NCBI RefSeq assembly: GCF_039555335.1
Contig: NC_092647.1
Location: 11,002,313 to 11,066,312, forward strand
Source: Amphiura filiformis
Lineage: Eukaryota; Echinodermata; Ophiuroidea; Amphilepidida; Amphiuridae
Direction: 5' to 3'
DNA length: 64,000 bases
Shown: in pieces, positions 7,429-46,910 of the stretch
Layout of the letters: the number at the start of each line of letters is the position of its first letter
Numbering within the stretch: the stretch's first letter is position 1
Program-made: the position numbers and the translations under genes
The notes under the pieces: generated by a model
Databases searched by the model: none
Seen by the model: only the letters and a program-made list of their open reading frames with translations
What the model was told of the DNA's origin: nothing

Positions 7429-7638
7429 AAATCTACCAAAAAAACGTTGACAACGTAAAGAAATCAGCAAGTTTAAAAAAACCCACCTCGGCTCACTTTT
7501 TGAAACTTGGTCCCATTTGTAAAAGGTACTGATTTAAACTTTTCATATTTACATCAATTTAAAACATTTCCAGAAGTGTTATGTATCTTTAATGTGCAGA
7601 TGCGATATTAATTTGTAAGCTTTCTGGAACGACCTGAA

Positions 7639-12791: not shown

Positions 12792-13979
12792 TTAGGTTAA
12801 CTGGTTTCGTTGTTGTTCAATATCTCTTTTCAATTTCCGTTTTTCAGCTCGTTTCTTTCTATAATCAGAAATGATGTCAGCAATGGTATATATATATGGG
12901 TTAATGGCAGAATTAATGGGCAGAATAAATGTAACACACCATGCAAAAACAGATGGGGGTAGAGTAATCACCCTGGTTTGAACCAAGATCCCGAGGATGA
13001 TTATCGGAGACCAACAGCAAAAGTCTGTTACAACGATGGCTGATACTTTGGTTGTGAGCGTGATCTGTTCTTTCATTTCAAGAGAACGTCCAGATCGCTC
13101 GGCGGATTTGTAATAAGCCCTCACTAACCCTATGTAACAGCCAAGTATTACTAGGTAACATACACAGTTAAGGCCTAAGAAAACAGCTGTTGAATAAAAT
13201 AGCCCATTAGTCAGACCCTTGAATTCGGTATCATAGATGGCATAGGGAAATTTCGTCCAAATAGAATTTGTTTCAATATTGAATATTTGCGTTTTATTTT
13301 TTTCAGTATTATATATCTTGGTCAAAGCTAGTGGTAGTCCAATGCAAACGTGTGAATTGTCATAAAATTTAAAAAACATTCCTGACAAAGCTGATGGAAC
13401 GATGCCTAATACAAATGAAATAATCCATGTCAAAATCACAACGATTGTGGCAGATTTTTTTCTCAATTTGTGAGTGGTATAAGGAAACCTGATAGCAATT
13501 AATCTGTCTATGCTTATTAATGTCACAAAGAACACAGAAGCTTCACTGGATATTATTGACAAAGCTCCTGCAATTCTGCAGGTAATGCCATATCTCCAGG
13601 TTTCAGATTGCATTGGGAAATAATCACCGAAATATGAATCAGCTGTAGCAATGATCACAAGATAGATTCCCATCAGAAAATCTGATGCGGCAAGATTGCA
13701 CAGCAATATTGCATTCACTTTATTCTTTTGAGCCATTTTCTTTCTGGCAACTAGTACACACAGATTTCCTCCAAGTGCATTTAAACCGATGAGCCACATT
13801 ACCACTGCCAATGTTCTATCAGAAAGCAGCCTATCACATGTAAGATATGGGGATCTGCTTCCTGCGGCAATACAATGGATATGAGTAGGGACATAACAAT
13901 TACATATTTCATGTTGACTAATAAATAATTTTAACCTAATTGACAGGGAAGAAAACGAATCGCGAGTTATTCTGGTCAA
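12792..13979 (-). CDS. LRR-GPCR segment 4: LRR cap and 7TM domain
   Basis: 395 residues; the frame is open upstream of this Met, so it is not a true start. Residues 1-50 hold the end of the LRR array and a cysteine-containing cap (CNCYVPTHIHC, then SPYLTCDRLLSDR), diagnostic for GRL101/relaxin-type receptors. Seven membrane segments lie at about 57-78, 87-110, 134-157, 175-197, 257-285, 311-333 and 343-366. Visible class A features: GN in TM1, Asp100 in LAASD of TM2, a Cys134-Cys212 disulfide pair, DRL (159-161) in place of DRY, CWSP (322-325) in TM6 and NPYIY (360-364) in TM7. The tail is short and lysine/arginine-rich. It probably couples to G proteins; the ligand is unknown. Confidence 0.88.
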   Translation of the reverse strand: MTRITRDSFSSLSIRLKLFISQHEICNCYVPTHIHCIAAGSRSPYLTCDRLLSDRTLAVVMWLIGLNALGGNLCVLVARKKMAQKNKVNAILLCNLAASDFLMGIYLVIIATADSYFGDYFPMQSETWRYGITCRIAGALSIISSEASVFFVTLISIDRLIAIRFPYTTHKLRKKSATIVVILTWIISFVLGIVPSALSGMFFKFYDNSHVCIGLPLALTKIYNTEKNKTQIFNIETNSIWTKFPYAIYDTEFKGLTNGLFYSTAVFLGLNCVCYLVILGCYIGLVRAYYKSAERSGRSLEMKEQITLTTKVSAIVVTDFCCWSPIIILGILVQTRVITLPPSVFAWCVTFILPINSAINPYIYTIADIISDYRKKRAEKRKLKRDIEQQRNQLT

Positions 13980-13996
13980 ACTGTTGTTAACGAGAT

Positions 13997-15214
13997 TTAA
14001 GAAAGCTCTAGACGAATCAGGTACTTCATGTTTGGCATTTCTGTTAATTTATTTGCTGACAAATCAGCCAGCAATAGTTTGACTGCGTGTTTAAATATGT
14101 TGCTATCTAAATGTGTTAGATCATTGTGTGATATATCGAGAATTTCCAACTTTCTTAAATCTTGCATCACATTTTGGTTAAACGATCGTAATTTGTTAGA
14201 GTGGGCATAGAGTATTTTTAAATTTAACACGTTTTTGAAGATACCATCAGGGAATGCAGTTAACTTGCTACCATTAAGTTTTAGGATGTTCAGCCTCCTT
14301 AAATTAGAGAATAAATCCATATTGAATGTAGTATATTCATTTTCACTCAATGACAGAGAAAACAAATGGGGTAAGTCTCTAAAACACCCTTCAGGTATTG
14401 AACTCAAGACGTTGTTTTGAAGTGAAAGCCTTTTGAGATTGTTCATACCGTGGAAACTTTTCACCTCCAGTTTAAATAGTTTATTTCCATTGAGGATCAA
14501 TTCTTCCAAATGTTTTAAATCGTGAAACATCCCGTTAGGCAATACACTCAACAAATTATCCGAAAGCGAGAGTATTTGAAGGTTTTTCAAACTTTTAAAG
14601 CTCACGTCAAGTTCTGATATCTGATTTCCATTAAGGTGCAGTTCTTCCAAGTATATCAAATCTTGAACTATCTCGTCAGGTACACTACTTAAAAAATTAT
14701 CAGAAAGCCAGAGTATTTTAAGATTTTTCAAACTCCGAGTCATTATCACACCAAGTTCTGATATAAGATTTCCGTTGAGATTCAGTAGTTCCAATCTAAC
14801 CAAATATTTGTCAACCGGTAATATACTTAATAAATTATCGTAAAGCCAGAGCTTTTTGAGATTTTCCAAACTTTGAATCATTTCTACTTCCAGATCTGAT
14901 ATTTGATTTCCACCAAGGTCCAATTCTTCCAAATTTACCAAATTTTGAAATATCCCGTCAGGTAAATCGCTCAAGTAATTATCAGAAATCAAGAGTATTC
15001 TAAGATTGTTCAAATTTCGAAACATTTTTACATCAAAATTTGATATCTGATTTCCATTAAGGTTCAGTTCTTCCAAATTGATCAAATCTTTAATTATCTC
15101 ATCAGATAATGTACTCAACAAATTTTCATCAAGCCACAGTAGTGTGAGATTGTTCAACTTGAAACATTGCAACATCCAGATCTGATATGAGATTGCTAGT
15201 AAGGTATAGTTCAA
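13997..15214 (-). CDS. LRR-GPCR segment 3: about 16 more divergent LRRs
   Basis: Continues the ectodomain after the second break. Repeats here are more diverged from each other (GNQIS, DNYLS, GNLIS, NNVLS, ENEYT, SNKLR, HNDLT, ANKLT) than those of segment 1, so the membrane-proximal part is older and the distal part more recently amplified. The first 20 or so residues before LNNLTLLWL are out-of-frame read-through. The frame ends in a TAA near 13997; the receptor frame reopens one base away near 14004. Confidence 0.7.
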   Translation of the reverse strand: MNYTLLAISYQIWMLQCFKLNNLTLLWLDENLLSTLSDEIIKDLINLEELNLNGNQISNFDVKMFRNLNNLRILLISDNYLSDLPDGIFQNLVNLEELDLGGNQISDLEVEMIQSLENLKKLWLYDNLLSILPVDKYLVRLELLNLNGNLISELGVIMTRSLKNLKILWLSDNFLSSVPDEIVQDLIYLEELHLNGNQISELDVSFKSLKNLQILSLSDNLLSVLPNGMFHDLKHLEELILNGNKLFKLEVKSFHGMNNLKRLSLQNNVLSSIPEGCFRDLPHLFSLSLSENEYTTFNMDLFSNLRRLNILKLNGSKLTAFPDGIFKNVLNLKILYAHSNKLRSFNQNVMQDLRKLEILDISHNDLTHLDSNIFKHAVKLLLADLSANKLTEMPNMKYLIRLELS

Positions 15215-15587
15215 TCAACATTATCATATCTTGAAATATCCCATGAGGTAATTTGCTCAATAAATTACCATTAAGATGGAGTGTTTTGAGATTGTTCAAA
15301 TCTTGAAACACTTCTACATCCAGATCTGATATCTGATTTGAATAAAGGTATAGTTGCTCGAGCGTTATCAAATCTTGAAATACTCCATCAGGTAATTTAC
15401 CCAATAAATTATCCCCAAGCACGAGTGTTTTGAGATTGTTCAAATCTTGAAACACTTCTACATCTAGATCTGATATCTGATTTGAATGAAGGTATAGTTT
15501 CTCCAACGTTTCCAAATCTTGAAATATCCCATCAGGTAATTTACTCAATAAATTATACGCAAGCGCTAGTGTTTTGAGATTGTTCAA
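15129..15587 (-). CDS. LRR-GPCR segment 2: six LRRs
   Basis: Open frame continuing the LRR array after the break near 15595, where a neighbouring-unit comparison shows one base missing. It contains six repeats of the same alternating types (YNLLS, SNQIS, DNLLG, SNQIS, GNLLS, SNLIS) and loses frame again near 15157. The ATG at its start is an internal Met of a repeat, not a real initiator. Confidence 0.7.
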   Translation of the reverse strand: MNNLKTLALAYNLLSKLPDGIFQDLETLEKLYLHSNQISDLDVEVFQDLNNLKTLVLGDNLLGKLPDGVFQDLITLEQLYLYSNQISDLDVEVFQDLNNLKTLHLNGNLLSKLPHGIFQDMIMLIELYLTSNLISDLDVAMFQVEQSHTTVA

Positions 15588-18013
15588 ATCTTGAAAACTT
15601 CTACACCCAGATGTGATATCTGATTTTTATCAAGGTGTAGTTCCTCCAACGTTATCAAATCCCGAAATATCCCATCAGGTAATTTATTCAATAAATTATA
15701 ACGAAGTCTGAGTGTTTTGAGATTGTTCAAATCTTGAAATATCCCATCAGGTAATTTACTCAATAAAATATTCGAAAGCCCGAGTGTTGTGAGATTGTTC
15801 AAACCTTGAAACACTCTTACATCCAAATTTGATATGATATTTCTAATAAAGTGTATACCCTCCAACGTTATCAAATCTTGAAATATCCCATCAGGTAATT
15901 TACTCAATAAATTATCGTCAAGCCGGAGTGTTTTGAGATTGTTCAAACCATGAAACACTCCTATATCCAGATCTGATATCTGATTTCTATCAAGGCGCAA
16001 TTCCTCCAACGTTATCAAATCTTGGAATATTCCATCAGGTAATTTACTCAATAAATTGTCATAAAGCGTGAGTGTTTTGAGATTGTTAAAATTTTGAAAT
16101 ATCCCATCTGGTATTTTACTTAATAAATTATCGGCAAGCCAGAGTATTTTGAGACTATTCAAACCTTGAAACACTCCTGCATCCAGATTTGATATCTGAT
16201 TTGAATAAAGGTATAGTTTCTCCAACGTTATCAAATCTTGAAATATCCCATCAGGTAATTTACTCAATAAATTATCCCCAAGCACGAGTGTTTTGAGATT
16301 GTTCAAATCTTGAAACACTCCTACATCCAGATCTGATATCTGATTTGAATAAAGGTATAGTTGCTCGAGCGTTATCAAATCTTGAAATACTCCATCAGGT
16401 AATTTACCCAATAAATTATCCCCTAGCACGAGTGTTTTGAGATTGTTCAAATCTTGAAACACTTCTACATCCAGATCTGATATCTGATTTGAATGAAGGT
16501 ATAGTTGCTCCAACGCTTTCAAATCTTGAAATATCCCATCAGGTAATTTACTCAATAAATTTTCAGAGAGCCAGAGTGTTTTGAGATTGTTCAAATCTTG
16601 AAACACTTCTACATCCAGATCTGATATCTGATTCTTACCAAGATATAAAACCTCTAACGTTTTCAAATCCTGAAATATCCCATCAGGTAATTTACTCAGT
16701 AAATTATATTCAAGCGCGAGTGTTTTGAGATTGTTCAAATCTTGAAACACTCCTACATCCAGATCTGATATCTGATTTGAATAAAGGTATAGTTGCTCCA
16801 GCGTTATCAAATCTTGAAATATCCCATCAGGTAATTTACTCAATATATTATCCGCAAGCACGAGTATTTGAAGATTGTTCAAATCTTGAAACACTTCTAC
16901 ATCCAGATCTGATATCTGATTTGAATGAAGGTATATTTCCTCCAACGTTATCAAATTCTGAAATATCCCACCATGTAATTTACTCAATACATTATAAGAA
17001 AGCCGGAGTGTTTTGAGATTGTTCAAACCTTGAAACATCAGTGTGCCCAGTTGTGATATTTGATTTTCATAGAGGTCTAGTATTTCCAAATTTGTCAAAT
17101 CTTTAAATATTTCATGAAGTACTGTGCTTAAGAAATTATGCTCAAGTTGCAGTATTTTGAGGTTGTTTAAACCTTGGAATAATTCTACCTTAAGTTCCGA
17201 TATCTGGTTAAACGCCAAATTTAATACCTCTAAATATTTCAAGTCTTGAAAATATTTGCCAGACACTTGCACAATGTTATTTCCTGATATATCTAAATGA
17301 GTTGTGTAAAGTGGGTAGATGATTACAGCAGTGCTGTTTTGACCATGTGCGCAATCTTCATACACTACTTCTCTGGTACCAAGAAAGGCTGCACAATTTG
17401 GGGGAAACGTAAGCGTACAGTTATTGATAAATTGTGGATCACACGTAACTTTGCTGTTGTACCCTTTAACATTGCTACAATGATTTCTACTTACTCTGTT
17501 ACCATGGTGATCTGTATTGGCATTATTTTCCACTTCAGGGCATCCAAATAACGTACCATTATCACGTAATTCACCTATATAAACACTTGCATCACCTTGC
17601 AAATTAACTCGGAAACTTGACTCAAACAAGGTTGAGCTACACGTTTCTGGTTGAACATTGATTACTACATACTTATTCTTACAGTCTTCTAAGTCTCCAT
17701 TTCGCTCAATATAAAGGAATGTCGGTTCTGTAGGGTCTTTAACATAGCCATGTATTTGTAGCTCAGCGAAGGATCCTTGCGATGCTGTCACTTGAAGGAT
17801 ACATATGTAATTCGCGCTTCCTTTGAAGAAAACTCCTCCTTCGGTCTCTTTAAGAACAGAACAAGGATGGGTTCCCTTGAGAGGCACATCCCAAAGAGGT
17901 TCCACCAGCAACTGAGCTTCAACGACCATTCCATTCTTCACTGTGTTGTTGTTAAATGACAATGTCATAATGATGACAGAAAGTTTAAGGATATAACAGA
18001 TTTCACCCGCCAT
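15584..18013 (-). CDS. LRR-GPCR segment 1: N-terminal domain and about 24 LRRs
   Basis: 809 residues from the ATG at 18013. The N-terminus has a hydrophobic stretch (YILKLSVIIMTLSF) compatible with a signal peptide. Residues about 45-250 form a cysteine-rich domain with several N-glycosylation sequons. It vaguely resembles a CUB-type fold (spaced Cys, 'FLYIERNGDLEDC') but the assignment is uncertain. It shows no LDL-receptor class A module, which relaxin and GRL101 receptors normally carry. From about residue 235 onward come 24-residue LRRs alternating between an NQISDLDV type and an NLLSKLPDGIF type. The frame ends at the first break, after HLGVEVFKI. Confidence 0.75.
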   Translation of the reverse strand: MAGEICYILKLSVIIMTLSFNNNTVKNGMVVEAQLLVEPLWDVPLKGTHPCSVLKETEGGVFFKGSANYICILQVTASQGSFAELQIHGYVKDPTEPTFLYIERNGDLEDCKNKYVVINVQPETCSSTLFESSFRVNLQGDASVYIGELRDNGTLFGCPEVENNANTDHHGNRVSRNHCSNVKGYNSKVTCDPQFINNCTLTFPPNCAAFLGTREVVYEDCAHGQNSTAVIIYPLYTTHLDISGNNIVQVSGKYFQDLKYLEVLNLAFNQISELKVELFQGLNNLKILQLEHNFLSTVLHEIFKDLTNLEILDLYENQISQLGTLMFQGLNNLKTLRLSYNVLSKLHGGIFQNLITLEEIYLHSNQISDLDVEVFQDLNNLQILVLADNILSKLPDGIFQDLITLEQLYLYSNQISDLDVGVFQDLNNLKTLALEYNLLSKLPDGIFQDLKTLEVLYLGKNQISDLDVEVFQDLNNLKTLWLSENLLSKLPDGIFQDLKALEQLYLHSNQISDLDVEVFQDLNNLKTLVLGDNLLGKLPDGVFQDLITLEQLYLYSNQISDLDVGVFQDLNNLKTLVLGDNLLSKLPDGIFQDLITLEKLYLYSNQISNLDAGVFQGLNSLKILWLADNLLSKIPDGIFQNFNNLKTLTLYDNLLSKLPDGIFQDLITLEELRLDRNQISDLDIGVFHGLNNLKTLRLDDNLLSKLPDGIFQDLITLEGIHFIRNIISNLDVRVFQGLNNLTTLGLSNILLSKLPDGIFQDLNNLKTLRLRYNLLNKLPDGIFRDLITLEELHLDKNQISHLGVEVFKI

Positions 18014-18650
18014 ATTGGTCAGTTTGCTTTTAGATCGCTATGTCCAAATTTCAAGAAATGAAATCAGTAAACGTACGTGGAATATCGAATCAATGTTCAG
18101 AATAAATGCGGAGTTTGTAGCCGTTTACGTCCACTTTTTTAGCTTTTAACAACAGATAAAGAATACTTTTCAATTATATTGAAAGAAAGTCATAGCTAAT
18201 ATATAATATGACTATGCATGGTTTGTGCAGAGTAAATCAGCCTGGTAAATCAGACACTGTATGTATTAGATACATTTGTTCAGTTTCTTTTGTACAAGTA
18301 ATATACAGGTGTTTTTCTCCGGCCCGGGGTCTCCTACACGCGATCCTCAATCATATCATATCAGTACCAGTATTGCTATATGAACGGCGACATGGAATAT
18401 CGGATATCACTCGGTAGTTATGTATATAGATCATAATAGGTGCCTACACTAGAAACAGTACTCAATAGGCATTATTCTATTCAGTTAAAAACAAAACATC
18501 TTATTAGGTGCATTGGCTACCTTCATCATGATAAATTACAATCAAAAATGTAAAATATCTCGTGTTCGATGTGCGTGGTTCAAACTTTGACAGTGCTCAA
18601 ACCTTTTCGCGCAAACCGTATTTTGATGTTTCTCTGATAAAGTAGACAAA
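18014..18650. other. Upstream flank of the LRR-GPCR
   Basis: No coding region is seen. It would contain the promoter on the minus strand; no convincing core promoter motif was identified. Confidence 0.4.
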
Positions 18651-23872: not shown

Positions 23873-24941
23873 CTCTAGAACTACTGAGCCATATTTTGTA
23901 ACACGGACTACGAAGGGGGGGGGGGGTTGTTGCACCCCTCCCAATTTTTTACCGAACGTTCTCCTCAATATAAAAGGAAATGGCTATTTCAACCTAACTA
24001 ACAAGATAAAAGTCAGTAGCTGTAGGAATAATTTTGAAAATCATTGACTTTACTGTAGAAACCAATGGTGGACCACACCCCGCCCCTATGGTAATCCCCA
24101 GCAAACACAAAAACGTTTATAAAACGTTTTAAATAAGTTATATTTTGGCTTTTGGTTTAGGTAAAAACGTTTTAATAACATTAAAATGTCGGGTTATATA
24201 AAGGTCATGATAACGTTTTAAAACGTTTTGTATGAAAACACACTACAACAATATTTTGTAATGTTTTCAAAAAATGTTATTGTAAACTATTTTTGCAAAT
24301 ATTTTTGCCAAATATTGTGTCAATACTTAAATAACATTATGTTGAAATATTTGAACCCAGCAAACACAGAAATGTTCTTAAAATGTTTTTTTTCAAAACC
24401 TTTTAATAACATTTAAATGTCGGGTTATATAAAGGTCATGAAAACGTTTTTAAAACGTTATTGAAAATATTTTGGGCAAACATTTTTCGCAAAAATAACA
24501 TTCTGTTTAGAATGTTTTTTATCAAGTTTTCAAGAATGTTTTTGGAATGTTATTAAAACGTTTTTATACCATTTATATAACCCGACATTTAAACGTTTTC
24601 TGTATTAAAACATTTTCGTTTGGTGAGCAGTAGATTATCAAAAAATGTTTTTTAAGGTTATGGAAACGTTTTATACTCTTAATATGCCCTTTATATAACC
24701 CGACATTTAAATGTTTTCTGACAACCTTTTATAACCTTTTGCGAATGATGTCGAAAACGTTTTGTGTTTGCTGGGTCTTTGACGGCGGGTCCTACCCCCG
24801 GGTAAGGTGTTGATGTAAAAAATATATCACTTAAATGAGCGCAAAGGATGGATCTACGATTAGCTAAGATCGTTTGCGTTTTTTACGGCGGGTAAAAAAT
24901 CTTAGGGGATAGGTACACCCCCCCCCCTCGTAGTTCTACGG
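23873..24941. mobile_element. TTAA-flanked MITE inside the CR1-like LINE
   Basis: TTAA occurs on both sides (23869-23872 and 24942-24945). Removing the insertion would restore a continuous LINE frame, which is strong evidence for the exact boundaries. Ends share 'tagaactac' in inverted orientation, with poly-G/C tracts just inside. TTAA targeting fits piggyBac-like elements. It contains another MITE. Confidence 0.85.
24097..24775. mobile_element. Nested MITE with CCCAGCAAACAC ends
   Basis: Terminal inverted repeats cccagcaaacacaaaaacgtt and its complement near 24754-24775. The interior has sub-repeats around 'gtcgggttatataaaggtc' in both orientations and a second internal 'cccagcaaacaca' at 24357. 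It is non-coding; no clear duplication is seen. Confidence 0.8.
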
Positions 24942-24945
24942 TTAA

Positions 24946-26218
24946 AGGATGCCACGGGCAACCACATTCCCACTAAATTGATTTCTTGTAGATGGAATCT
25001 ACCATGAATGAACAAAGACATTAAGCGACTTATAAGAAAGAGACATAGAAGATATAATGCCTGGAAGAAGTGTAGAGACAAGGCACACCTTACAGAGTAT
25101 AACAAACTAAAGAAAGATGTGGAGAAAAGCATTCAACAAGCACACAACAAATATGTGGAAGGACTCTTTGAAGGAGAAGGTTGTGGAGTTATGTCAAATC
25201 CCTCAAGATTGATAAGATCGGCATTCCATCTTAAACATGTAAACATGAAAAATGATGTAACATATGTACTTGCCAGGAACATCAAAAAACATCTCGACCA
25301 AAACAACATTCTAAGCACATCTCAACATGGCTTTCGGAAAAGACACAATTGCGAAAGTTGATTAATACTGTTGAAGATCTAGCAAGGAGCCTTTACCAGC
25401 AAAAGCAGACAGACTGTCTCATATTAGACTTTTCGAAAGCTTTCCATTCGGTACCCCACCAACGTTTGCTCTACAAGATGGACTGGTAAGGCATCGGAGG
25501 TGAAACACGCACATGGATCGAAAACTGGTTGACCTCTAGAACACAGAGTGTGGTAATCGACGGTGAGAAATCTGAAGAAGGGGTCGTGATCTCCGGGGTC
25601 CCCCAAGGCACTATTCTAGGGCCTCTCTTATTCATCCTTTACATAAATGACATAGGAGAAGGAACGTCATCCACCATTCGCTTATTTGCTGACGACGCCT
25701 TGATATCACATCAAGAGCAGACACAGAAACCCTTCAGAAAGGCAAGTTGGTTCAATGGTCAACTAATTGACAGATGAGGTTCAACCCAGCAAAGTGTCCT
25801 CTTCTCCAGGTTACCAGAAAAAGAAACATCGTAAAGGCCTTCTTTGTGATGATGGGAACAGTGTTAGAAATAGCGGAACAACATCCATCCTTGGAGTTGG
25901 GCTACATTCAGGACTTGAATGGAAACAACGCATCAAGCAGGTGACCGGAAAAGCGCAACGGACCCTGAATTTCCTACAAAGAAACTTGTACCGATGTCCT
26001 CAGAGTGTGAAACAAGCGTACACCACTCTGGTTCGCCCAACACTGGAGTATGCGGTCACAGTATGGAGCCCGCACCACCAGAAGGTGATTGATAGCTTGG
26101 AAAGAGTTCAAAGAAGAGCCATAAGATTTGTCACAGGAAACTACCACGGGAGAACCAGCGTCACTGTTTTAAGGTTTGACATTGGTGTACCAACTCTGGA
26201 GTAGAGGCGAACAGTAGC
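24946..26218 (+). pseudogene. CR1-like LINE, reverse transcriptase part (first copy)
   Basis: Reads as CR1-group [56 protein letters not shown] (motif A), SGVPQGTILGPLLF (motif B), FADDALI (motif C), then the thumb/C-terminal LEYAVTVWSPHHQKV and RVQRRAIRFVTGNYHG. The frame is broken near 25355-25362, stopped by TAA at 25487-25489, and shifted again near 25750. The same lesions occur in all later copies of the array, so the LINE was dead before amplification. The 3' end is fused to a foldback-MITE fragment at about 26219. Confidence 0.85.
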
Positions 26219-26243
26219 TTTTGACACCTCATTTGTAGCAATT

Positions 26244-26887
26244 CGTCGGCTGTATTCCATAGTGGCGTATAGTGATTTTTGGTCATTTTTTTGAAAATGT
26301 GCACATATGTTTTTAATGATGTTCTCTTTCATTTTTCTAAGTCTCATCAGTCATAATTAGCTAATTAATTAGTAATTAATTAATTAAATGTGGCGTATAG
26401 TTACAAAGTGACATTTTCGTATTCCATAGTGGCGTATCGACCATACGCCACTTTTTATACACATTTTATAATTATGAAATATCGGCAAAAATGAAAAACA
26501 TCGTATGTCATAGTGGCGTACGCGTATCGGACCTATACGCCACTATGGAATACGAAAGACGAAAAGTAACGCCATAGGGATTACACGGCGACCGAGGTGA
26601 CGTACGGTTAACGTAAGGTTAGGGTATTGCGTTTTGTTCGTTTTCCATAGTGACGTATAGATTTATTGTCAGTTTGCCAGCAATAGTATGTATTTATTTC
26701 TTTTGAAAAATATATAACAATAAAAGCTATTTAGTTTACTACAGAAATTTCACATCATTTACAAAATATAATGAATGTCTGATTTACACAACTCGATTTT
26801 AAATTGGCATTTCTTCAAACCCGATTTTCTCGAAAAGTTGTTTATTCGCGGCGCCCCACTATACGCCACTATGGAATACGGACGACG
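26244..26887. mobile_element. MITE with 29-bp TIRs, present only in array unit A
   Basis: Ends read cgtcggctgtattccatagt... and, inverted, cgtcgtccgtattccatagt..., with 26 of 29 positions matching. It is flanked by AATT (26240-26243 and 26888-26891). Units B-D show the empty site 'gtagcaattgtctaaa'. The phrase 'catagtggcgta' recurs inside in both orientations, giving secondary hairpins. It is 644 bp and non-coding. Confidence 0.9.
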
Positions 26888-27450
26888 AATTGTCTAAATA
26901 TTGACGCCGCAGCGTACATTTAAATCAACGTAACCCAAGATTTGAAAGTTGCAGTAAATTCTATTGATATGTATTCAGTATAATGGACAAATCTGCTCGG
27001 CTCTTATGGGAATGTTCGTTTTGTTTCATGCATTTGGGGGTCAATCACTCAAAATATCGGGAAAATCAATATCAATTATCATATTGTGGGATAGGCTTTT
27101 ACGACGGGAATTCATAACAATTAGTGGGTTTTTAGCGGGTTCGCCGTCGGACAAGGGGCGGTCTACCGTTGTTATGGACAAAGATAAGTACCAAGAGAAA
27201 ATGAACAACTTTTTGTCTGAAGGCGATACTTATCAGGTCATGAAGAAAGATCCCACCCTATCTCTTGAACGCAAGATAGGTAAGGCCATCTCTGAGTTGA
27301 AGGAACAGAACAAGGTTGATAAGAAAAAGGCATCACATTTAACACCTAAGCACACTGTGTCTCCACGTATATATGGTCTACCGAAGATTCACAAAGAAAC
27401 CATGCCACTTAGACCTATTGTCAGCTCAATCAATTCACCATGTTACAATT

Positions 27451-29100
27451 ATGTGGAAGGACTCTTTGAAGGAGAAGGTTGTGGAGTTATGTCAAATCCC
27501 TCAAGATTGATAAGATCGGCATTCCATCTTAAACATGTAAACATGAAAAATGATGTAACATATGTACTTGCCAGGAACATCAAAAAACATCTCGACCAAA
27601 ACAACATTCTAAGCACATCTCAACATGGCTTTCGGAAAAGACACAATTGCGAAAGTTGATTAATACTGTTGAAGATCTAGCAAGGAGCCTTTACCAGCAA
27701 AAGCAGACAGACTGTCTCATATTAGACTTTTCGAAAGCTTTCCATTCGGTACCCCACCAACGTTTGCTCTACAAGATGGACTGGTAAGGCATCGGAGGTG
27801 AAACACGCACATGGATCAAAAACTGGTTGACCTCTAGAACACAGAGTGTGGTAATCGACGGTGAGAAATCTGAAGAAGTGGTCGTGATCTCCGGGGTCCC
27901 CCAAGGCACTATTCTAGGGCCTCTCTTATTTATCCTTTACATAAATGACATAGGAGAAGGAACGTCATCCACCATTCGCTTATTTGCTGACGACGCCTTG
28001 ATATCACATCAAGAGCAGACACAGAAACCCTTCAGAAAGGCAAGTTGGTTCAATGGTCAACTAATTGACAGATGAGATTCAACCCAGCAAAGTGTCCTCT
28101 TCTCCAGGTTACCAGAAAAAGAAACATCGTAAAGGCCTTCTTTGTGATGATGGGAACAGTGTTAGAAATAGCGGAACAACATCCATCCTTGGAGTTGGGC
28201 TACATTCAGGACTTGAATGGAAACAACGCATCAAGCAGGTGACCGGAAAAGCGCAACGGACCCTGAATTTCCTACAAAGAAACTTTTTACCGATGTCCTC
28301 AGAGTGTGAAACAAGCGTACACCACTCTGGTTCGCCCAACACTGGAGTATGCGGTCACAGTATGGAGCCCGCACCACCAGAAGGTGATTGATAGCTTGGA
28401 AGGAGTTCAAAGAAGAGCCATAAGATTTGTCACAGGAAACTACCACGGGAGAACCAGCGTTACTGTTTTAAGGTTTGACATTGGTGTACCAACTCTGGAG
28501 TAGAGGCGAACAGTAGCTTTTGACACCTCATTTGTAGCAATTGTCTAAATATTGACGCCGCAGCGTACATTTAAATCAACGTAACCCAAGATTTGAAAGT
28601 TGCAGTAAATTCTATTGATATGTATTCAGTATAATGGAAAAATCTGCTCGGCTCTTATGGGAATGTTCGTTTTGTTTCATGCATTTGGGGGTCAATCACT
28701 CAAAATATGGGGAAAATCAATATCAATTATCATATTGTGGGATAGGCTTTTACGACGGGAATTCATAACAATTAGTGGGTTTTTAGCGGGTTCGCCGTCG
28801 GACAAGGGGCGGTCTACCGTTGTTATGGACAAAGATAAGTACCAAGAGAAAATGAACAACTTATTGTCTGAAGGCGATACTTATCAGGTCATGAAGAAAG
28901 ATCCCACCTATCTCTTGAACGCAAGATAGGTAAGGCCATCTCTGAGTTGAAGGAACAGAACAAGGTTGATAAGAAAAAGGCATCACATTTAACACCTAAG
29001 CACACTGTGTCTCCACGTATATATGGTCTACCGAAGATTCACAAAGAAAACATGCCACTTAGACCTATTGTCAGCTCAATCAATTCACCATGTTACAATT
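27451..29100 (+). repeat. Array unit B
   Basis: Contains the CR1 RT fragment (27451-28516), MITE fragment (about 28517-28635) and PLE 5' part (about 28770-29100). Private changes: one extra T in 'aactttttaccg' near 28285, which shifts the RT C-terminal frame, and one missing C near 28908 ('cccacctatc'), which breaks the PLE frame. The two indels cancel in length. Confidence 0.9.
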
Positions 29101-30750
29101 ATGTGGAAGGACTCTTTGAAGGAGAAGGTTGTGGAGTTATGTCAAATCCCTCAAGATTGATAAGATCGGCATTCCATCTTAAACATGTAAACATGAAAAA
29201 TGATGTAACATATATACTTGCCAGGAACATCAAAAAACATCTCGACCAAAACAACATTCTAAGCACATCTCAACATGGCTTTCGGAAAAGACACAATTGC
29301 GAAAGTTGATTAATACTGTTGAAGATCTAGCAAGGAGCCTTTACCAGCAAAAGCAGACAGACTGTCTCATATTAGACTTTTCGAAAGCTTTCCATTCGGT
29401 ACCCCACCAACGTTTGCTCTACAAGATGGACTGGTAAGGCATCGGAGGTGAAACACGCACATGGATCAAAAACTGGTTGACCTCTAGAACACAGAGTGTG
29501 GTAATCGACGGTGAGAAATCTGAAGAAGTGGTCGTGATCTCCGGGGTCCCCCAAGGCACTATTCTAGGGCCTCTCTTATTTATCCTTTACATAAATGACA
29601 TAGGAGAAGGAACGTCATCCACCATTCGCTTATTTGCTGACGACGCCTTGATATCACATCAAGAGCAGACACAGAAACCCTTCAGAAAGGCAAGTTGGTT
29701 CAATGGTCAACTAATTGACAGATGAGATTCAACCCAGCAAAGTGTCCTCTTCTCCAGGTTACCAGAAAAAGAAACATCGTAAAGGCCTTCTTTGTGATGA
29801 TGGGAACAGTGGTAGAAATAGCGGAACAACATCCATCCTTGGAGTTGGGCTACATTCAGGACTTGAATGGAAACAACGCATCAAGCAGGTGACCGGAAAA
29901 GCGCAACGGACCCTGAATTTCCTACAAAGAAACTTGTACCGATGTCCTCAGAGTGTGAAACAAGCGTACACCACTCTGGTTCGCCCAACACTGGAGTATG
30001 CGGTCACAGTATGGAGCCCGCACCACCAGAAGGTGATTGATAGCTTGGAAAGAGTTCAAAGAAGAGCCATAAGATTTGTCACAGGAAACTACCACGGGAG
30101 AACCAGCGTCACTGTTTTAAGGTTTGACATTGGTGTACCAACTCTGGAGTAGAGGCGAACAGTAGCTTTTGACACCTCATTTGTAGCAATTGTCTAAATA
30201 TTGACGCCGCAGCGTACATTTAAATCAACGTAACCCAAGATTTGAAAGTTGCAGTAAATTCTATTGATATGTATTCAGTATAATGGAAAAATCTGCTCGG
30301 CTCTTATGGGAATGTTCGTTTTGTTTCATGCATTTGGGGGTCAATCACTCAAAATATGGGGAAAATCAATATCAATTATCATATTGTGGGATAGGCTTTT
30401 ACGACGGGAATTCATAACAATTAGTGGGTTTTTAGCGGGTTCGCCGTCGGACAAGGGGCGGTCTACCGTTGTTATGGACAAAGATAAGTACCAAGAGAAA
30501 ATGAACAACTTATTGTCTGAAGGCGATACTTATCAGGTCATGAAGAAAGATCCCACCCTATCTCTTGAACGCAAGATAGGTAAGGCCATCTCTGAGTTGA
30601 AGGAACAGAACAAGGTTGATAAGAAAAAGGCATCACATTTAACACCTAAGCACACTGTGTCTCCACGTATATATGGTCTACCGAAGATTCACAAAGAAAA
30701 CATGCCACTTAGACCTATTGTCAGCTCAATCAATTCACCATGTTACAATT
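29101..30750 (+). repeat. Array unit C
   Basis: Same layout as unit B without its two indels. The PLE part is open from about 30264 to the junction with the next CR1 fragment, giving a fused reading frame that is PLE in its first part and CR1 from [10 protein letters not shown] onward. Confidence 0.9.
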
Positions 30751-32400
30751 ATGTGGAAGGACTCTTTGAAGGAGAAGGTTGTGGAGTTATGTCAAATCCC
30801 TCAAGATTGATAAGATCGGCATTCCATCTTAAACATGTAAACATGAAAAATGATGTAACATATGTACTTGCCAGGAACATCAAAAAACATCTCGACCAAA
30901 ACAACATTCTAAGCACATCTCAACATGGCTTTCGGAAAAGACACAATTGCGAAAGTTGATTAATACTGTTGAAGATCTAGCAAGGAGCCTTTACCAGCAA
31001 AAGCAGACAGACTGTCTCATATTAGACTTTTCGAAAGCTTTCCATTCGGTACCCCACCAACGTTTGCTCTACAAGATGGACTGGTAAGGCATCGGAGGTG
31101 AAACACGCACATGGATCAAAAACTGGTTGACCTCTAGAACACAGAGTGTGGTAATCGACGGTGAGAAATCTGAAGAAGTGGTCGTGATCTCCGGGGTCCC
31201 CCAAGGCACTATTCTAGGGCCTCTCTTATTCATCCTTTACATAAATGACATAGGAGAAGGAACGTCATCCACCATTCGGTTATTTGCTGACGACGCCTTG
31301 ATATCACATCAAGAGCAGACACAGAAACCCTTCAGAAAGGCAAGTTGGTTCAATGGTCAACTAATTGACAGATGAGGTTCAACCCAGCAAAGTGTCCTCT
31401 TCTCCAGGTTACCAGAAAAAGAAACATCGTAAAGGCCTTCTTTGTGATGATGGGAACAGTGTTAGAAATAGCGGAACAACATCCATCCTTGGAGTTGGGC
31501 TACATTCAGGACTTGAATGGAAACAACGCATCAAGCAGGTGACCGGAAAAGCGCAACGGACCCTGAATTTCCTACAAAGAAACTTGTACCGATGTCCTCA
31601 GAGTGTGAAACAAGCGTACACCACTCTGGTTCGCCCAACACTGGAGTATGCGGTCACAGTATGGAGCCCGCACCACCAGAAGGTGATTGATAGCTTGGAA
31701 AGAGTTCAAAGAAGAGCCATAAGATTTGTCACAGGAAACTACCACGGGAGAACCAGCGTCACTGTTTTAAGGTCTGACATTGGTGTACCAACTCTGGAGT
31801 AGAGGCGAACAGTAGCTTTTGACACCTCATTTGTAGCAATTGTCTAAATATTGACGCCGCAGCGTACATTTAAATCAACGTAACCCAAGATTTGAAAGTT
31901 GCAGTAAATTCTATTGATATGTATTCAGTATAATGGAAAAATCTGCTCGGCTCTTATGGGAATGTTCGTTTTGTTTCATGCATTTGGGGGTCAATCACTC
32001 AAAATATCGGGAAAATCAATATCAATTATCATATTGTGGGATAGGCTTTTACGACGGGAATTCATAACAATTAGTGGGTTTTTAGCGGGTTCGCCGTCGG
32101 ACAAGGGGCGGTCTACCGTTGTTATGGACAAAGATAAGTACCAAGAGAAAATGAACAACTTATTGTCTGAAGGCGATACTTATCAGGTCATGAAGAAAGA
32201 TCCCACCCTATCTCTTGAACGCAAGATAGGTAAGGCCATCTCTGAGTTGAAGGAACAGAACAAGGTTGATAAGAAAAAGGCATCACATTTAACACCTAAG
32301 CACACTGTGTCTCCACGTATATATGGTCTACCGAAGATTCACAAAGAAAACATGCCACTTAGACCTATTGTCAGCTCAATCAATTCACCATGCTACAATT
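30751..32400 (+). repeat. Array unit D (joins the native PLE)
   Basis: Last copy of the CR1 and MITE fragments. From about 32071 its PLE part runs on without a junction into the rest of the PLE, which identifies it as the original PLE context. Confidence 0.9.
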
Positions 32401-32912
32401 TAGCGAAACACCTAGCGGATATATTGACACCCTTATCAGGAAACGGCACTTCCTACATCAAGAACTCGCAACATTTTGTTGAAAAGGCAGGGCAAATACC
32501 CATAGAACCAGGTGACTTATTGGTCAGTTTTGATGTGGTATCATTATTCACTAATGTACCAATTGATGATGCTAGTAAGATTATAGGAGATATCTTGCGT
32601 GATGACGATACACTTAAAAACAGAACACGCATGACAAGCGATGAGATCGTAGAACTTATGAAGTTATGCCTCACATCTACGTACTTCAAATGGCAAGGGA
32701 AATTCTATGAACAAAAAGAGGGTCAGGCAATGGGTTCACCTCTCTCCCCAGTAACATCGAATATCTTCATGGAACACTTTGAAACCAAAGCACTAGATAC
32801 GTATCCTTTGATACACATTCGTCGTCAGGCGACATGGCAAAGACGAACTGGTCAAATTCCTAAGTCATTTCAACAATCAACACAAGTGTATCCAGTTCAC
32901 AATGGAGATTGA
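32100..32912 (+). pseudogene. PLE reverse transcriptase, catalytic box lost
   Basis: PLE RT motifs in order: [44 protein letters not shown] (motif A aspartate present), YFKWQGKFYEQKEGQAMGSP (motif B), NIFMEHFETKAL. Just after, near 32815-32835, where YVDD should stand, the sequence is short and shifted: RT-like reading resumes in another frame with DTFVV-type sequence. The polymerase is therefore inactive. The region before PKIHKE ([19 protein letters not shown]) is the PLE N-terminal domain. Confidence 0.85.
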
Positions 32913-33597
32913 GGAGGCGGGTGGCATACCTTTCCTTGATGTCAAAGTGCAGAGATCAGACACTAGCTTGAGTTTCGCCATATACCGAAAACCCACTCAT
33001 ACTGATCAATATCTTCATTTTAACTCTAGTCACCATATGTCTGCCAAGAACAGTGTTGTCAATACACTGGTTCACAGAGCACTGACTCTGTGTGATGAAG
33101 AACATCGAAAAGACGAACTCAAACACATTGAAAAAGCGTTGAACAAGAATGGCTATCCCTCAAACCTCATTCACAAGGCAATCAAGAAACAGACAGGAGA
33201 ACGATCAGAAGAATTGGTGGACGATGAACACAAAGGCGTTACCTTCATGCCATATATCAAAGGTGTATCAGACAAAATCTGTCGGTTTCTAAACCGATCA
33301 GGGGTCAAAACATTCTACTCTAGGTCGGCCAAATTAAGAGACATCCTAAGCCACCCAAAAGATCCTCTGCCCAAGGATCGTGCACCATGTGTGAACTCTA
33401 TACCTTGCAGTTGTGGTGAGCAATACATAGGCCAAACCAAACGACCACTAAAGGTCAGAATATCTGAACACCGAAGAGCCACAAGACAAAAGAAAGAAGA
33501 AGGCTCGGCATTAGCTGAACATGCTTGCAAAGAAGGCCATGAACATCTGTGGGACGAAACAACAAGTTTCTCACTTGGGGATGAGGTTGACCCGTGA
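32902..33597 (+). CDS. PLE RT thumb and GIY-YIG endonuclease
   Basis: 231-residue open frame after the RT break. It begins MEIEEAGGIPFLDVKVQRSD (end of RT), then YRKPTHTDQYLHFNSSHH, a linker, and the endonuclease: CVNSIPCSCGEQYIGQTKRP, LKVRISEHRRATR, AEHACKEGHEH. The YIG half, the catalytic Arg and EH are visible. The frame shifts at 33597; the remaining C-terminus (ALEIRVNETSTINR, RMWRSLF) continues at 33595-33709 in another frame. Confidence 0.85.
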   Translation: MEIEEAGGIPFLDVKVQRSDTSLSFAIYRKPTHTDQYLHFNSSHHMSAKNSVVNTLVHRALTLCDEEHRKDELKHIEKALNKNGYPSNLIHKAIKKQTGERSEELVDDEHKGVTFMPYIKGVSDKICRFLNRSGVKTFYSRSAKLRDILSHPKDPLPKDRAPCVNSIPCSCGEQYIGQTKRPLKVRISEHRRATRQKKEEGSALAEHACKEGHEHLWDETTSFSLGDEVDP

Positions 33598-33837
33598 AGC
33601 GTTGGAAATCAGAGTTAATGAAACTTCTACTATCAATAGAAATGACGGCAAAGACATCAGTCGTATGTGGCGCTCTCTATTTTCAAACAACCAATCACAG
33701 AGCCGCTAATCTGTACCACGTCCGCAATTAAGTGATATAAACGCTCATCGTGCATACAATCAATCAATCGGTCCATGAGTGGCCATACGGTTCCTGGTAA
33801 GCCGTACACTTCTATTACAGTATATGCAATCTACATG

Positions 33838-34100
33838 TTCTCTGTTGACAAGGGGCAGTCTTCATTGAACAGCTCTTCCTCAGAGCGAACAAACCTTTAA
33901 TTTAGCAGATAGGCGAGGTCTGCTTGTTTTCTGTAGACAAGGGGCAGTCTTCATTGAACGGCTCTTTTCAGAGCCACCAAAACTTACAAAATCAGCAGAT
34001 AGGCGAGATCTGCTAGTTTCTGTTGACAAGGGGCAGTTTTCAGCAAACGGCTCTTTTCAGAGTCATCAGTAGACAAGGGGTGGTCTACATGTCTCATTCT
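33838..34100 (+). repeat. PLE 3' tandem repeats
   Basis: Three to four imperfect units starting 'gacaaggggcagtc', followed by 'ttcattgaacggctcttttc' and 'cagcagataggcgag'. Spacing shrinks from about 93 to 50 bp. They are part of the PLE terminal repeat. Confidence 0.8.
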
Positions 34101-34104
34101 TAGG

Positions 34105-34152
34105 TACTTTGTCCTGAAGAAGTCAGAGCTACTCCTGACGAAAGCTTGACAG
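34105..34152 (+). ncRNA. Hammerhead ribozyme-like motif in the PLE tail
   Basis: Stem I TGTC (34110-34113), core CTGAAGA (34114-34120), stem II GTCAG/CTGAC (34122-34139), GAAA (34140-34143), a minimal helix III AG/CT, candidate cleavage after U at 34147, and GACA (34148-34151) closing stem I. All conserved hammerhead positions are met. A helix III this short is known for hammerheads of PLEs, which are thought to work as dimers. Activity is inferred, not shown. Confidence 0.6.
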
Positions 34153-34349
34153 TTTTAAACTTGTCCGACGGCGAACCCGCTAAAAACCCACTAGTTATCA
34201 ATTATTATTATTCTTATCGTTAGTCAATATTCACTTAATCCCTAGTTGAAACATGAAGAGTTAACACATTTTAAAGGCCCCGCCAAGTTGTCATTTTAAC
34301 GGTTAAGTTAGATCAGGTTAGGCTGGTCATCTTCGTAACATCTCACCTT

Positions 34350-34530
34350 TTGAACATGCCAAGGTTACAAGAGACTTCATCTTGATGGACGATAATGCAA
34401 CTCCACATAGGGCTAGGATAACCAACCAGCTTCTGGAACAAGAAGGCATCAATCGTATGTTATGGCCTGCCAAATCTCCAGACCTGGACCCATTGTTGCA
34501 TTTGTGGGGACAGTTAAGGGGACTCGATCT
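34350..34530 (+). pseudogene. Tc1/mariner transposase fragment
   Basis: Reads FILMDDNATPHRARIT, LLEQEGINRML, WPAKSPDLDPLLHLWGQL, matching the second half of a Tc1 DDE domain. The second catalytic Asp (DDNA) is present. The third acidic residue, normally in the IEHLW box, is replaced (LLHLW). Only this fragment remains. Confidence 0.8.
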
Positions 34531-34590
34531 TTTGTGCGTAATTATAGAGTGCCAGGGGATTTACTCTATCATTAAAAAAATTATTTAAAG

Positions 34591-35039
34591 AAGTCAAAGA
34601 GCCCTAAGAATAAAAACTGTAGTGTAATTCACACCAGACAAAATTTCTTTACATGACTTAAAATTAATTTTTGTAATCGATCAAAAAACAAACGTTTTAT
34701 ATCAATTTTAAATTTAGCCTGAATCCGTAAATATGGTACCTGTCACCCTTTTTATAGGTCAAGGCTGTTTTTACCATTATGCAGCGAACCATTGTTGAAG
34801 CTATTTCACATACATGTACAAAACATTCTAGAGAAAGAATGAGGCCATATACTGTTGAAATATCTTTTGTTGATTTCGAATGAAAATGTCATGAAGTCGT
34901 AAATTTTAAGGTTATATTCCTAAAACCAAAACAAAACATTGTGACGTAGATATTTCCCAACTTACGCAATTTCATCATCACATCAGTGTCTTTATTATTT
35001 GTTTGAAACCTTTCCCAAACGTTCGTGCTCTTTATGCAT
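34591..35039. other. Intergenic, nothing recognised
   Basis: No gene or repeat family was recognised in this stretch. Confidence 0.4.
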
Positions 35040-35599
35040 AAAACGGCTAATTAGAGTCACGCGGTAGCCGTGACCAGCAAGTTTAAAAGAAGACTGTTAA
35101 AGAAGACTAATAAGATGCTCCCGCGAGACTATATTTACACCTAACATTAAAACACTTGACTTCTATTGTTCTATGATATTTTTCGATGGGTACAAAGTGT
35201 ATCTAAAACCATGTTTAATGTTATTTAGAGTCCCAAATGTAATATCTTGACAACTCATTAATTCAAAACGGGACACCAATCCTACAGTCAACCATTGTTT
35301 AATAATAAACAAACACTTTTGCTTCATTTCACCCGGTATTTCATAGCGAAAATTAGTGGAAAATAATACTGATCCAGAATTTTTTAACAAGGCTACAGCA
35401 CTAGCGGGCAATCACCTACACACTACTTTTTCAGATTGACTTCCAATTATACCCTAGCATTTTCTGAGATACCCTACATAAAAATTCTGAGCCCCATTCG
35501 CCAAAAAATGAAGTTTTTCACAATTCTTTTGTTCTTTCCGGACGATGCACCCATTCATAAAATAAATAATGTACTTCGACACAGCAATTTATATCAGAG

Positions 35600-36154: not shown

Positions 36155-36304
36155 TTAAGGGCCTATTTAAAAAAAAAAACCTATAGTGCAGCCGCTAGCA
36201 GAACAAATAATAAAAAAAATCTCTTTATTACTTTTATTTATTTAAATCTGAACAACACAACAATCTGAATCAGGTTACCAATATTTTCTCATTTAAATTA
36301 AAAA

Positions 36305-36890
36305 CTCAACAACCGCCGCTCAATAGGGATGTCAAACTATATTGCCCCGCAGGGCTACAAAGAACCACAAACCGCGAAATATGGATATCCAAAATTGTTT
36401 AAAAGACAAATTAGCCACCGATAGAGGCCAGGGCCTGAACAAGTAGAGAAATTAAAACCACAGACCGCGAAAGAACGCCAAAAACCGCCGCTCACTAGGG
36501 ATATCCAACTAGATTGGCCCGCAGGGCTACAAAGAACCACAAATCGCGAAATTTGGATATCCAACAAATTAAAACCACAAACTGCGAAAGACAACCAACA
36601 ACCGCCGCTCAATAGAGACATCCAGCTATATTGCCCCGCTTCAAAAACCACACACTGTGAAGTATAGTTATCCAACAAGCTTAAACTATAAATTAACCCC
36701 CGATAGAGGGTAGGGCATGAAGAATGAGGGAAATTAAAACTACAAACCGCGAAAGACCGCCAACAACCGCCGCTTAATAGCAAAATTCAACTAGATTGCC
36801 CCGCAGGGCTACAAAGAACTATCAACCGCGAAATTTGGATCTCCAACTAGATTGCCCCGCCGTGCTACAAAAACCACAATCATTAAAACA
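36305..36890 (+). repeat. Minisatellite of element A, copy 3
   Basis: Same unit as 4085-4880 ('ccacaaaccgcgaaa', 'ggatatccaac', 'gcagggctacaaag'), about ten degenerate copies. Confidence 0.8.
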
Positions 36891-37337
36891 TAATTATCTT
36901 GCTAAGTCGTGGCACTTAGACGCTTCCGTAGTATAAGCCTTGCTACAGAGTCTCAATTTGAAGTAAATCGGACTGACTTTGTGTCTCGCTGGCATCGTCA
37001 ACATTGGGTATGTGTTGTTCATATTTACATTTTCTTAGTTGCCTTGAATAATTAAAATATATTAAAATGTATATGTATCCCTATTAACATTACAGTCACG
37101 CGGTAGCAGTGACCAGCAAGTTTAAAAAATAAACGGCTGATAAAGTTTTATTAAATTATTTACTGTCATAAATCAAGGATAACATAATTTCAAACATCTG
37201 TTTTTCGTTTTATTCGTTTTATGGAGTACTTCGTAACCCGATGACTTTCCAAGCTTAGAGCTGCTTGGCTACATTCATAAAAAGAAAGAAAATCCACCAA
37301 AAAAACGTTGACAACGTAAAGAAAGCAGCAAGTTTAA

Positions 37338-37993
37338 GGGCTGGGGTATGAACGTTTGGACAGTATTTATTTTGGGACATCAGAGCACATCAGACATATC
37401 GAATTGCATTCTGAATACGAAGAATGTCATTCTGATATCAAATAATTTTGATTTTTGAAATTCGCAATTTAATACACATTTTATGGCAAATCATTAAAAA
37501 TTGATATTTTTGATATTTAACAGTACTTGAAGTAAACTTTATAAATCTGATGATTTATACTTAAAGTGTATGTAGGTGGGATAAAAAGCCGACGATCAAT
37601 TGAAAATTTTGACCTTTCGTATTGAAGATATGGATTTTTTTCCCAAAACACCAAAAAAATTAGGTCTTTTGGGAAAAAATCCATATCTTCAATATGAAAG
37701 GTCACAATTTTCAATTGACCGTCGGCTTTTCCTCCCAGCTACATACACATTAAGAATATATCATTAGATTTATATAATTACTTCGAGGACTGTTATATAT
37801 CAAAAATTAGAAAAATATCAAATTTTTATAATTTGTCATAAAATTTGTATTATATTGTGATTTTCAAAAAATGAAAATTATTTGATATCAGAAAGACATG
37901 CTTCGTATTCAGAATGCAATTCGATAGGTCCGAGGTGCTCTCATGTCCCACAAAAAATACTGTCGAAACGCAATAAACGCTCATTTTAGATCC
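37338..37993. mobile_element. Foldback MITE, nearly full-length palindrome
   Basis: 656 bp flanked by TTTAA (37333-37337 and 37994-37998). The two halves are inverted copies around about 37660; for example 'atatcgaattgcattctg' and 'cagaatgcaattcgat' near the ends, and 'tccatatcttcaata' in the middle. It splits the 'cagcaagttta..cccacctcggctc' block of element A, whose unbroken form is seen in copies 1 and 2. Confidence 0.85.
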
Positions 37994-45038: not shown

Positions 45039-45900
45039 TTAAAGATGCTTGTTCATGTTTTTATTGCATGTCATTTAGACCAATGCAATAGTCTTCTTTA
45101 TGGCTTTATACGCGACTTACAGATCTCCAAACTCCAACGAATTCAAAATTCAGCTGACAGATTAATTTCGCTTTTTAAGAAATGTGATCACATTAATCAA
45201 ATCCTTCGTGATTTACATTGGCCACCTGTGAAATACCGCATTATATACAAAGTTCTCCTCCTCACTTACAAATGTTTTCATGGACTTCAAATTCAGACTA
45301 TTTGAGCCCAAAGGCGCGAGATGTACAAAATATGTTGCAATTTTGCCCTATTTTCCCCAAATCATGTTTATATTGATGTAAAAGAAGAAGATGCACAGGG
45401 CAATTGTCGTCGAATTAAGAAATGTGATCACATTAATCCAATCCTTCGTGATTTACATTGGCTACCTGTGAAATACCGCATTATATACAAAGTTCTCCTC
45501 CTCACTTACAAATGTTTTCATGGACTTCAAATTCAGACTATTTGAGCCCAAAGGCGCGAGATGTACAAAATATGTTGCAATTTTGCCCTATTTTCCCCAA
45601 ATCATGTTTATATTGATGTAAAAGAAGAAGATGCACAGGGCAATTCTCGTCGAATTAAAAAATGTGATCACATTAATCCAATCCTTCGTGATTTACATTG
45701 GCTACCTGTGAAATACCGCATTATATACAAAGTTCTCCTCCTCACTTACAAATGTTTTCATGGACTTCAAATTCAGACTATTTGAACCCAAAGGCGCGAG
45801 ATGTACAAAATATGTTGCAATTTTGCCCTATTTTCCCCCAAATCATGTTTATATTGATGTAAAAGAAGAAGATGCACAGGGCAATTCTCGTCGATATCTT
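45039..45900 (+). pseudogene. LINE 3' fragment with 240-bp triplication
   Basis: Reads HVFIACHLDQCNSLLYGFIR, LQRIQNSADRLI, KKCDHINQILRDLHWPPVKY, RIIYKVLLLTYKCFHGL, matching the C-terminal end of CR1/jockey-type LINE proteins. From 45175 the last part is repeated three times with a period of exactly 240 bp (aatgtgatca at 45181, 45421, 45661). Copies 2 and 3 share LHWLPV where copy 1 has LHWPPV. The third has one extra C. Confidence 0.85.
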
Positions 45901-46103: not shown

Positions 46104-46590
46104 ATATAAACATCTCAAAAAAAGTAACTAACCCCCTTAAATAATGGCCATTATTCAAAAAGGGGCTATTGTATTGCAAATCTGTACAATGCGTTGGAAG
46201 CAGAATTTATTTCTGCGCATTTTGACACCTCATTTGATACGATAGTCCAGAAAACAATAAAACACCGGTCAATTTAATGTAGTGAGGTACAGATTTGAAA
46301 GTTGCACTTACATACAAATTTTTACAATACAAAAACACTCAGATATCATCACAAAAATTTCCTTCCATTACACTGAATGCAAAATCAATAGAATTTACTG
46401 CAACTTTCAAATCTTAGGTTACATTGATTTAAATGTACGCTGTGACGTCAATATTTTGTCAATTGCTACAAATGAGGTGTCAAAATGTGGAGAAATAAAT
46501 TCTGCTTCCAACGCATTTTACAGATTTGTAATACAATCACCCGTTTTTGAATAATGGTCATTATTTAAGGGGGGTTAGTTACTTTTTTTG
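46104..46590. mobile_element. Foldback MITE, intact
   Basis: Left end 'aaaaaaagtaactaaccccc' and its inverted right end near 46570-46590. Inner inverted parts include 'ttttgacacctcattt' near 46218 and its complement near 46477. About 490 bp, non-coding. Its right-central part is the MITE fragment embedded in every unit of the 25-32 kb array. Confidence 0.85.
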
Positions 46591-46910
46591 ATATGTTTAT
46601 AACAGTCTTTTATTTTATCATCATCTAGCCTACAACTTCTTGTTGTACGTAGTATTCACTTTCTATTTCAACTTTATTGATTTCAATTTGCTTTTCAATG
46701 ACAACTACCAAAAATAACATCATTTTTAAATCTCACAATCTTGCACCCAATTTCATCCTTCATTTCAACTTATTGGCGTTAAGCCCGGGTAAAATAATAT
46801 ATAGATTAAACGCCAAAAAGTAAATTATATTTTCAAACAAGAGAATATAATCTCGTGCCTATAATTCCAACGGCGTGATCGCTTTGATTTGCAACGTTTT
46901 TGGTAGCAAT
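46591..46910. other. Intergenic, nothing recognised
   Basis: No gene or repeat was recognised. Confidence 0.35.

Follow-up and report, generated by a model that had tools for sequence, protein, structure and literature searches.

A four-unit tandem array composed of the remains of three mobile elements and its probable origin by duplication of a dead element nest

The locus analysed here raises the question of how parts of three unrelated mobile elements, a LINE, a foldback element and a Penelope-like element (PLE), came to be repeated together, head to tail and almost without change, within the window, that is, the whole 64-kb stretch of DNA that was analysed. The answer that we consider highly probable is tandem duplication of an element nest that was already dead, followed by growth of the array from inside through unequal exchange and by an insertion into unit 1; the repair pathway, the unequal exchange and the order of these events are what we infer from the sequence.

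Composition and divergence of the four units

When the window was compared with itself, the direct-repeat family at 25147-32400 was the outstanding one. It contains a head-to-tail array (25153-32400) of four units, each of 1,650 bp once the insertion in unit 1 and one AATT are excluded (Table 1). Identity among the four units is 99.3-99.7%, with pairwise distances of 0.30% (units 2 and 3), 0.48% (units 1 and 4, and units 3 and 4), 0.55% (units 2 and 4), 0.61% (units 1 and 3) and 0.67% (units 1 and 2), the mean being 0.52%. With the insertion excluded, the differences between units amount to 16 substitution sites and two one-base indels. An array of such near-identical units cannot be due to chance. 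These results confirm the original prediction that four nearly identical units of 1,650 bp occupy this interval, and its proposal that the unit spans parts of three element types was likewise borne out, given that LINE, foldback and PLE-like pieces were found in all four. The repeated block spans at least two unrelated elements, and the internal joins between element parts are the same in each copy. The single-copy flanks continue the LINE on the left and the PLE on the right of the array, and no second copy of 24950-25152 was found within the window.

Table 1. Positions in the window of the array, its parts and related features.
Feature	Positions	Strand	Remarks
Left single-copy flank	25008..25152	+	same LINE reading frame continued; 25008-25361 open
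Unit 1	25153..27450	+	2,298 bp: 1,650-bp unit, 644-bp insertion and duplicated 4-bp AATT (648 bp extra)
Unit 2	27451..29100	+	1,650 bp
Unit 3	29101..30750	+	1,650 bp
Unit 4	30751..32400	+	1,650 bp; right edge continues into PLE
LINE (CR1-like) part, unit 4	30751..31816	+	reverse transcriptase pieces with FADD, interrupted by stops
Foldback-element fragment, unit 4	31817..31938	+	122 bp; 91.9% over 123 columns to 46485-46363
47-bp inverted piece, unit 4	32059..32105	-	inverted relative to PLE 3' region 34160-34203, 91.5%
PLE-like reverse transcriptase and C-terminal frame	32100..33709	+	breaks in frame near 32.8 and 33.6 kb
644-bp inverted-repeat (MITE-like) insertion	26244..26887		unit 1 only
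Fuller foldback-element copy	46105..46601		halves inversely matching, 74.9% over 510 columns
Duplication junction PLE/LINE	27438..27460, 29088-29110, 30738-30760	+

Decayed elements within the unit

Two open pieces of the LINE part matched RVT_1, one at 31088-31372 with a score over the curated cut-off (E=5e-10) and one at 30953-31084 (E=5.1e-4), and the FADD motif is present in the LINE part of all four units; comparison of a LINE piece with solved structures gave no match up to E=1. We provisionally take this part to be CR1-like on the basis of its motifs. In every unit, the first 1,068 bases or so of the LINE part have 12-22 stops per frame in all three forward frames. Nearly every position of the LINE part is identical across the four units, and since its stops are common to all of them, at nearly all the same positions, decay of the LINE appears to predate the duplication.

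Each unit also includes the first ~300 bp of the PLE-like frame. The PLE-like part gave RVT_1 matches with E=3.3e-6 and 6.3e-6, both with scores that fall short of the curated threshold, and a [YF]xDD motif is absent from all three forward frames over 32100-33720. No Pfam GIY-YIG match was reported up to E=10 in 32812-33594, a search in which filters may drop weak matches. By eye, CGEQYIGQTKRPLKVRISEHRR in the PLE-like frame resembles GIY-YIG. With RVT_1 below its curated cut-off and no GIY-YIG match, the PLE label is thus provisional and depends partly on motif likeness. Rfam returned eight matches up to E=5 for 24700-35500. A hammerhead ribozyme, a feature reported in PLEs although not required, was not among them, and six of the eight (MIR2606, four Avashort thermometer and TarB) were set aside, being far under their cut-offs. 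Against solved structures the PLE-like part gave 13 weak matches, the best to an RNA-directed DNA polymerase (E=0.35) and the other 12 to dishevelled chains, which we took for chance, and the C-terminal part of the frame gave no match up to E=1. In a search for PLE relatives in viral contigs, none of eight pattern-matching stretches was confirmed. The 47-bp inverted piece that precedes the PLE-like frame in unit 4 is also found in the other units, at 27109-27155, 28760-28806 and 30409-30455. Because of the stops in the LINE frames, the breaks in the PLE frame and its lack of [YF]xDD, neither parent element is intact, contrary to the description of the flanking CR1 and PLE in the original prediction; stops interrupt the LINE in all four units.

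The PLE 3' region contains 2.5 copies of an 89-bp repeat (33837-34062), located between the PLE-like frame and the presumed 3' end. Its middle copy carries a histone-type 3' stem-loop (33955-34000) that matched RF00032 with 34.8 bits, compared with a gathering threshold of 34 (E=2.3e-6). The third copy (34044-34086) matched RF00032 weakly (20 bits, E=0.14) and differs at two of 23 core bases from the middle copy, which itself served as the query in this comparison, and in the first copy, near 33868, the stem-loop is more altered. Folding z-scores were -3.6 for the middle copy, -1.4 for the first and -0.5 for the third, in which the stem is not favoured, so that a canonical histone-type stem-loop is present in one of the three copies. 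Literature searches at title level returned no title reporting a retroelement with a histone-type 3' stem-loop; if the stem-loop belongs to the element, a retroelement with the 3' signal of histone mRNAs would be unusual, and its RNA could be tied to S phase.

The third component, the 122-bp foldback fragment, corresponds to one half of a fuller element and is whole in units 2-4. In unit 1 it is split (26219-26243 and 26888-26987) by the 644-bp insertion, which is flanked on both sides by AATT (26240-26243 and 26888-26891). The insertion has end repeats of 31 nt (93.5%), or of 36 nt at 94% when the flanking CAATT is counted, with several inner copies of its end motif, and no coding frame of at least 110 aa was found inside it; it therefore combines the terminal inverted repeats, target-site duplication and lack of coding capacity that define a MITE. 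Units 2, 3 and 4 keep an uninterrupted insertion site with a single AATT, and the site is also uninterrupted, with two mismatches, in the fuller foldback copy (46449-46472). In the simplest reading of these uninterrupted sites, the 644-bp insertion post-dates the first duplication, after which it probably entered unit 1. The foldback MITE originally placed in the unit is thus present in all four units if the 122-bp fragment was meant, and in unit 1 alone if the 644-bp insertion, the more conspicuous MITE, was meant. The ~120 bp to the right of the foldback fragment (31939-32058 in unit 4) matched no other part of the window at a threshold of E 1e-3.

Founding junction and growth of the array

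The sequence that joins the PLE end of one unit to the LINE start of the next, CCATGTTACAATT/ATGTGGAAGG, has three exact copies in the window, which contains no further match even when up to three mismatches are allowed; 0 copies are expected by chance. All three junctions carry a T (27443, 29093 and 30743) where the right flank has a C (32393), which is most simply explained by descent from one founding junction. Three identical junctions derived from one founding junction support the proposal that a block lying across the LINE/foldback/PLE boundary was duplicated and copied head to tail.

At the breakpoints, the left flank reads ACAACAAAT/ATGTGG, the right flank CTACAATT/TAGCG and the junction TTACAATT/ATGTGG; exactly one base is shared on the left side of the break and no base on the right side. 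Of 19,972 breakpoint pairs drawn at random from the window, 45.7% shared at least one base, and the flanks of the two breaks agree without gaps at 22 of 50 bases on the left and at 11 of 50 on the right, with no longer likeness evident. Since one shared base pair is within what chance gives for random breakpoints, nothing points to microhomology; the 2-4 bp of shared sequence originally attributed to the junction, and the microhomology-mediated duplication deduced from them, were not upheld.

Open frames that fuse PLE and LINE sequence run in frame across all three junctions, as had been predicted for some copies. Two have 233 aa (26958-27659 and 30258-30959) and one, at 28872-29309, has 145 aa owing to a base missing in unit 2. 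The fused frames comprise the N-terminal side of the PLE reverse transcriptase and ~70 LINE residues. Pfam gave no reported match for the frame at 30258-30959 with a limit of E=10, nor for the one across units 1 and 2 at E 0.01. The idea that these frames are functional was rejected, given that the frame lacks [YF]xDD and is shorter in unit 2, and we propose that they are by-products without plausible function. They nevertheless constitute an annotation hazard, as they could pass for a gene family though both parents look dead.

Among the 16 substitutions, five are private to unit 1, three to unit 2, two to unit 3 and three to unit 4, and the remaining three separate units 2 and 3 from units 1 and 4; all three informative sites therefore group the units in the same way and none conflicts. 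Both one-base indels are in unit 2. Because simultaneous copying from one template predicts no shared sites, at least two rounds of amplification are likely, the inner units 2 and 3 forming the youngest pair. Such a pattern is expected under unequal exchange, because edge units are fixed in place by their flanks. Of the later unequal exchange put forward in the original prediction, expansion inside the array is thus supported, and unequal exchange itself would be the route behind it. The informative sites are few (n=3), and sequencing error could account for some of the variants, above all the indels of unit 2.

Could the tandem arrangement instead be the work of the assembler, made from two haplotypes or from no more than two real units? 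Divergence of ~0.5% between units is not above the allelic differences generally known from many marine invertebrates, and we nonetheless judge such an artefact improbable, because every unit has variants of its own, unit 1 has a 644-bp insertion bordered by AATT on both sides, and misjoined haplotypes would not be expected to produce one sharp internal breakpoint three times, identically.

Duplication driven by the PLE itself appears still less probable. An endonuclease nick by an ATT, priming on read-through RNA of the locus and 5' truncation in the LINE would yield an exact tandem copy, and the right break indeed lies directly after AATT. For a Poseidon-type PLE of Anolis, the account in PMC11167929 describes a preferred ATT motif and reverse transcription that starts inside its RNA, and proposes nicking of its own pseudo-LTR or of other AT-rich DNA. 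However, with 63% A+T in the window ATT motifs are frequent, the PLE at this locus is dead, and no PLE part was recognised in the nearby 240-bp array described below. Moreover, the PLE tandems presented in that account repeat the element with its pseudo-LTRs and not a block that extends from a neighbouring LINE into the reverse transcriptase frame (PMC11167929). Were PLE-driven duplication true, a retroelement enzyme would have made a tandem copy that resembles a DNA-repair product.

That the CR1/foldback/PLE composite is a mobile family with copies elsewhere is scarcely credible: it has no support in the window outside the array, the unit starts and stops inside reading frames and lacks terminal repeats or a tail of its own, the elements at either end run on into the flanks, all three junctions in the window lie inside the array, and the junction had no matches in the external contigs scanned, which were viral and prokaryotic and no fair test of eukaryote genomes.

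Tandem duplication of a dead nest, the reading that we favour, would have started from a LINE fragment, a foldback fragment, ~120 bp of unassigned sequence and a PLE copy whose 5' side bore an inverted terminal piece, the elements being already dead. In one tandem duplication of this nest, the right break would have fallen in the PLE reverse transcriptase frame (ACAATT/TAGCG) and the left break in the LINE frame (AAAT/ATGTGG), and the ends may have been joined with one shared base pair, as by end joining or template switching at a replication fork; a single shared base cannot discriminate among end joining, template switching and models based on reverse transcription. Two units would then have become four through growth in the interior of the array, for which unequal exchange, whether between sister chromatids or between homologues, is the simplest route; the MITE-like element would also have been inserted into unit 1.

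Neighbouring repeats and known parallels

A second array (45175-45894) lies ~13 kb away and consists of three copies of 240 bp, 98.75% and 97.5% identical, in what by eye is another LINE-like fragment. Its junction contains one base fitting neither flank, with no shared base to the left of the break and one to the right, and it indicates that such duplications recur in this stretch. The window also contains a 43-bp minisatellite (47258-47669; 9.4 copies, a higher-order period of 175 bp with 98% match) and an LRR receptor repeat (14483-17110), so that, together with the 240-bp array, tandem duplication is common in this stretch. The LRR repeat lies within 12792-18037 on the minus strand, where LRR frames (LRR_8, E=1e-118) are followed by a rhodopsin-type 7TM frame (7tm_1, E=9.6e-27), corresponding to an LRR-containing GPCR-like gene whose regular repeats have a period of 144 bp. 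Together with the types of mobile element present, these receptor frames suggest an animal genome. Related repeat blocks with a period of ~56 bp are found at 4111-9800 and 36300-37340 in inverted arrangement (4518-5568 against 9099-8058, 89.8%), and may represent a mobile element that carries repeats.

Inverted pseudo-LTRs and partial tandems are described for PLEs in PMC3846280. The 47-bp inverted copy of the 3' region at the 5' edge of the local PLE recalls such inverted pseudo-LTRs; unlike the partial tandems in these accounts, the 1,650-bp unit runs from inside a LINE to a point in the reverse transcriptase frame (PMC3846280, PMC11167929). On the conversion of transposable elements into tandem or satellite repeats, the review in PMC9659126 describes how end joining or recombination produces a first duplication, which unequal exchange then expands. 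Compared with the satellites derived from element remains that it covers, the array has only four units and shows no sign of having spread or of lying in a centromeric region (PMC9659126).

A close likeness is with the duplicated nests of Drosophila melanogaster, where the account in PMC1794594 describes, for high-density regions, duplications with several element families, often nested and sometimes with extra insertions in single copies, and calls tandem duplication sufficient for some of them. Here, too, there are several families per block and an extra insertion in one copy (PMC1794594), whereas, set against the nests in that account, the present block is short (1,650 bp), occurs in four copies and has its breakpoints in two dead reading frames. 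Duplicated transposon nests have thus already been published, and the array is an ordinary, clear case that involves no new mechanism; with one junction, growth from the inside out and one unit-specific insertion, it represents a readable early stage of a tandem repeat made from transposon remains.
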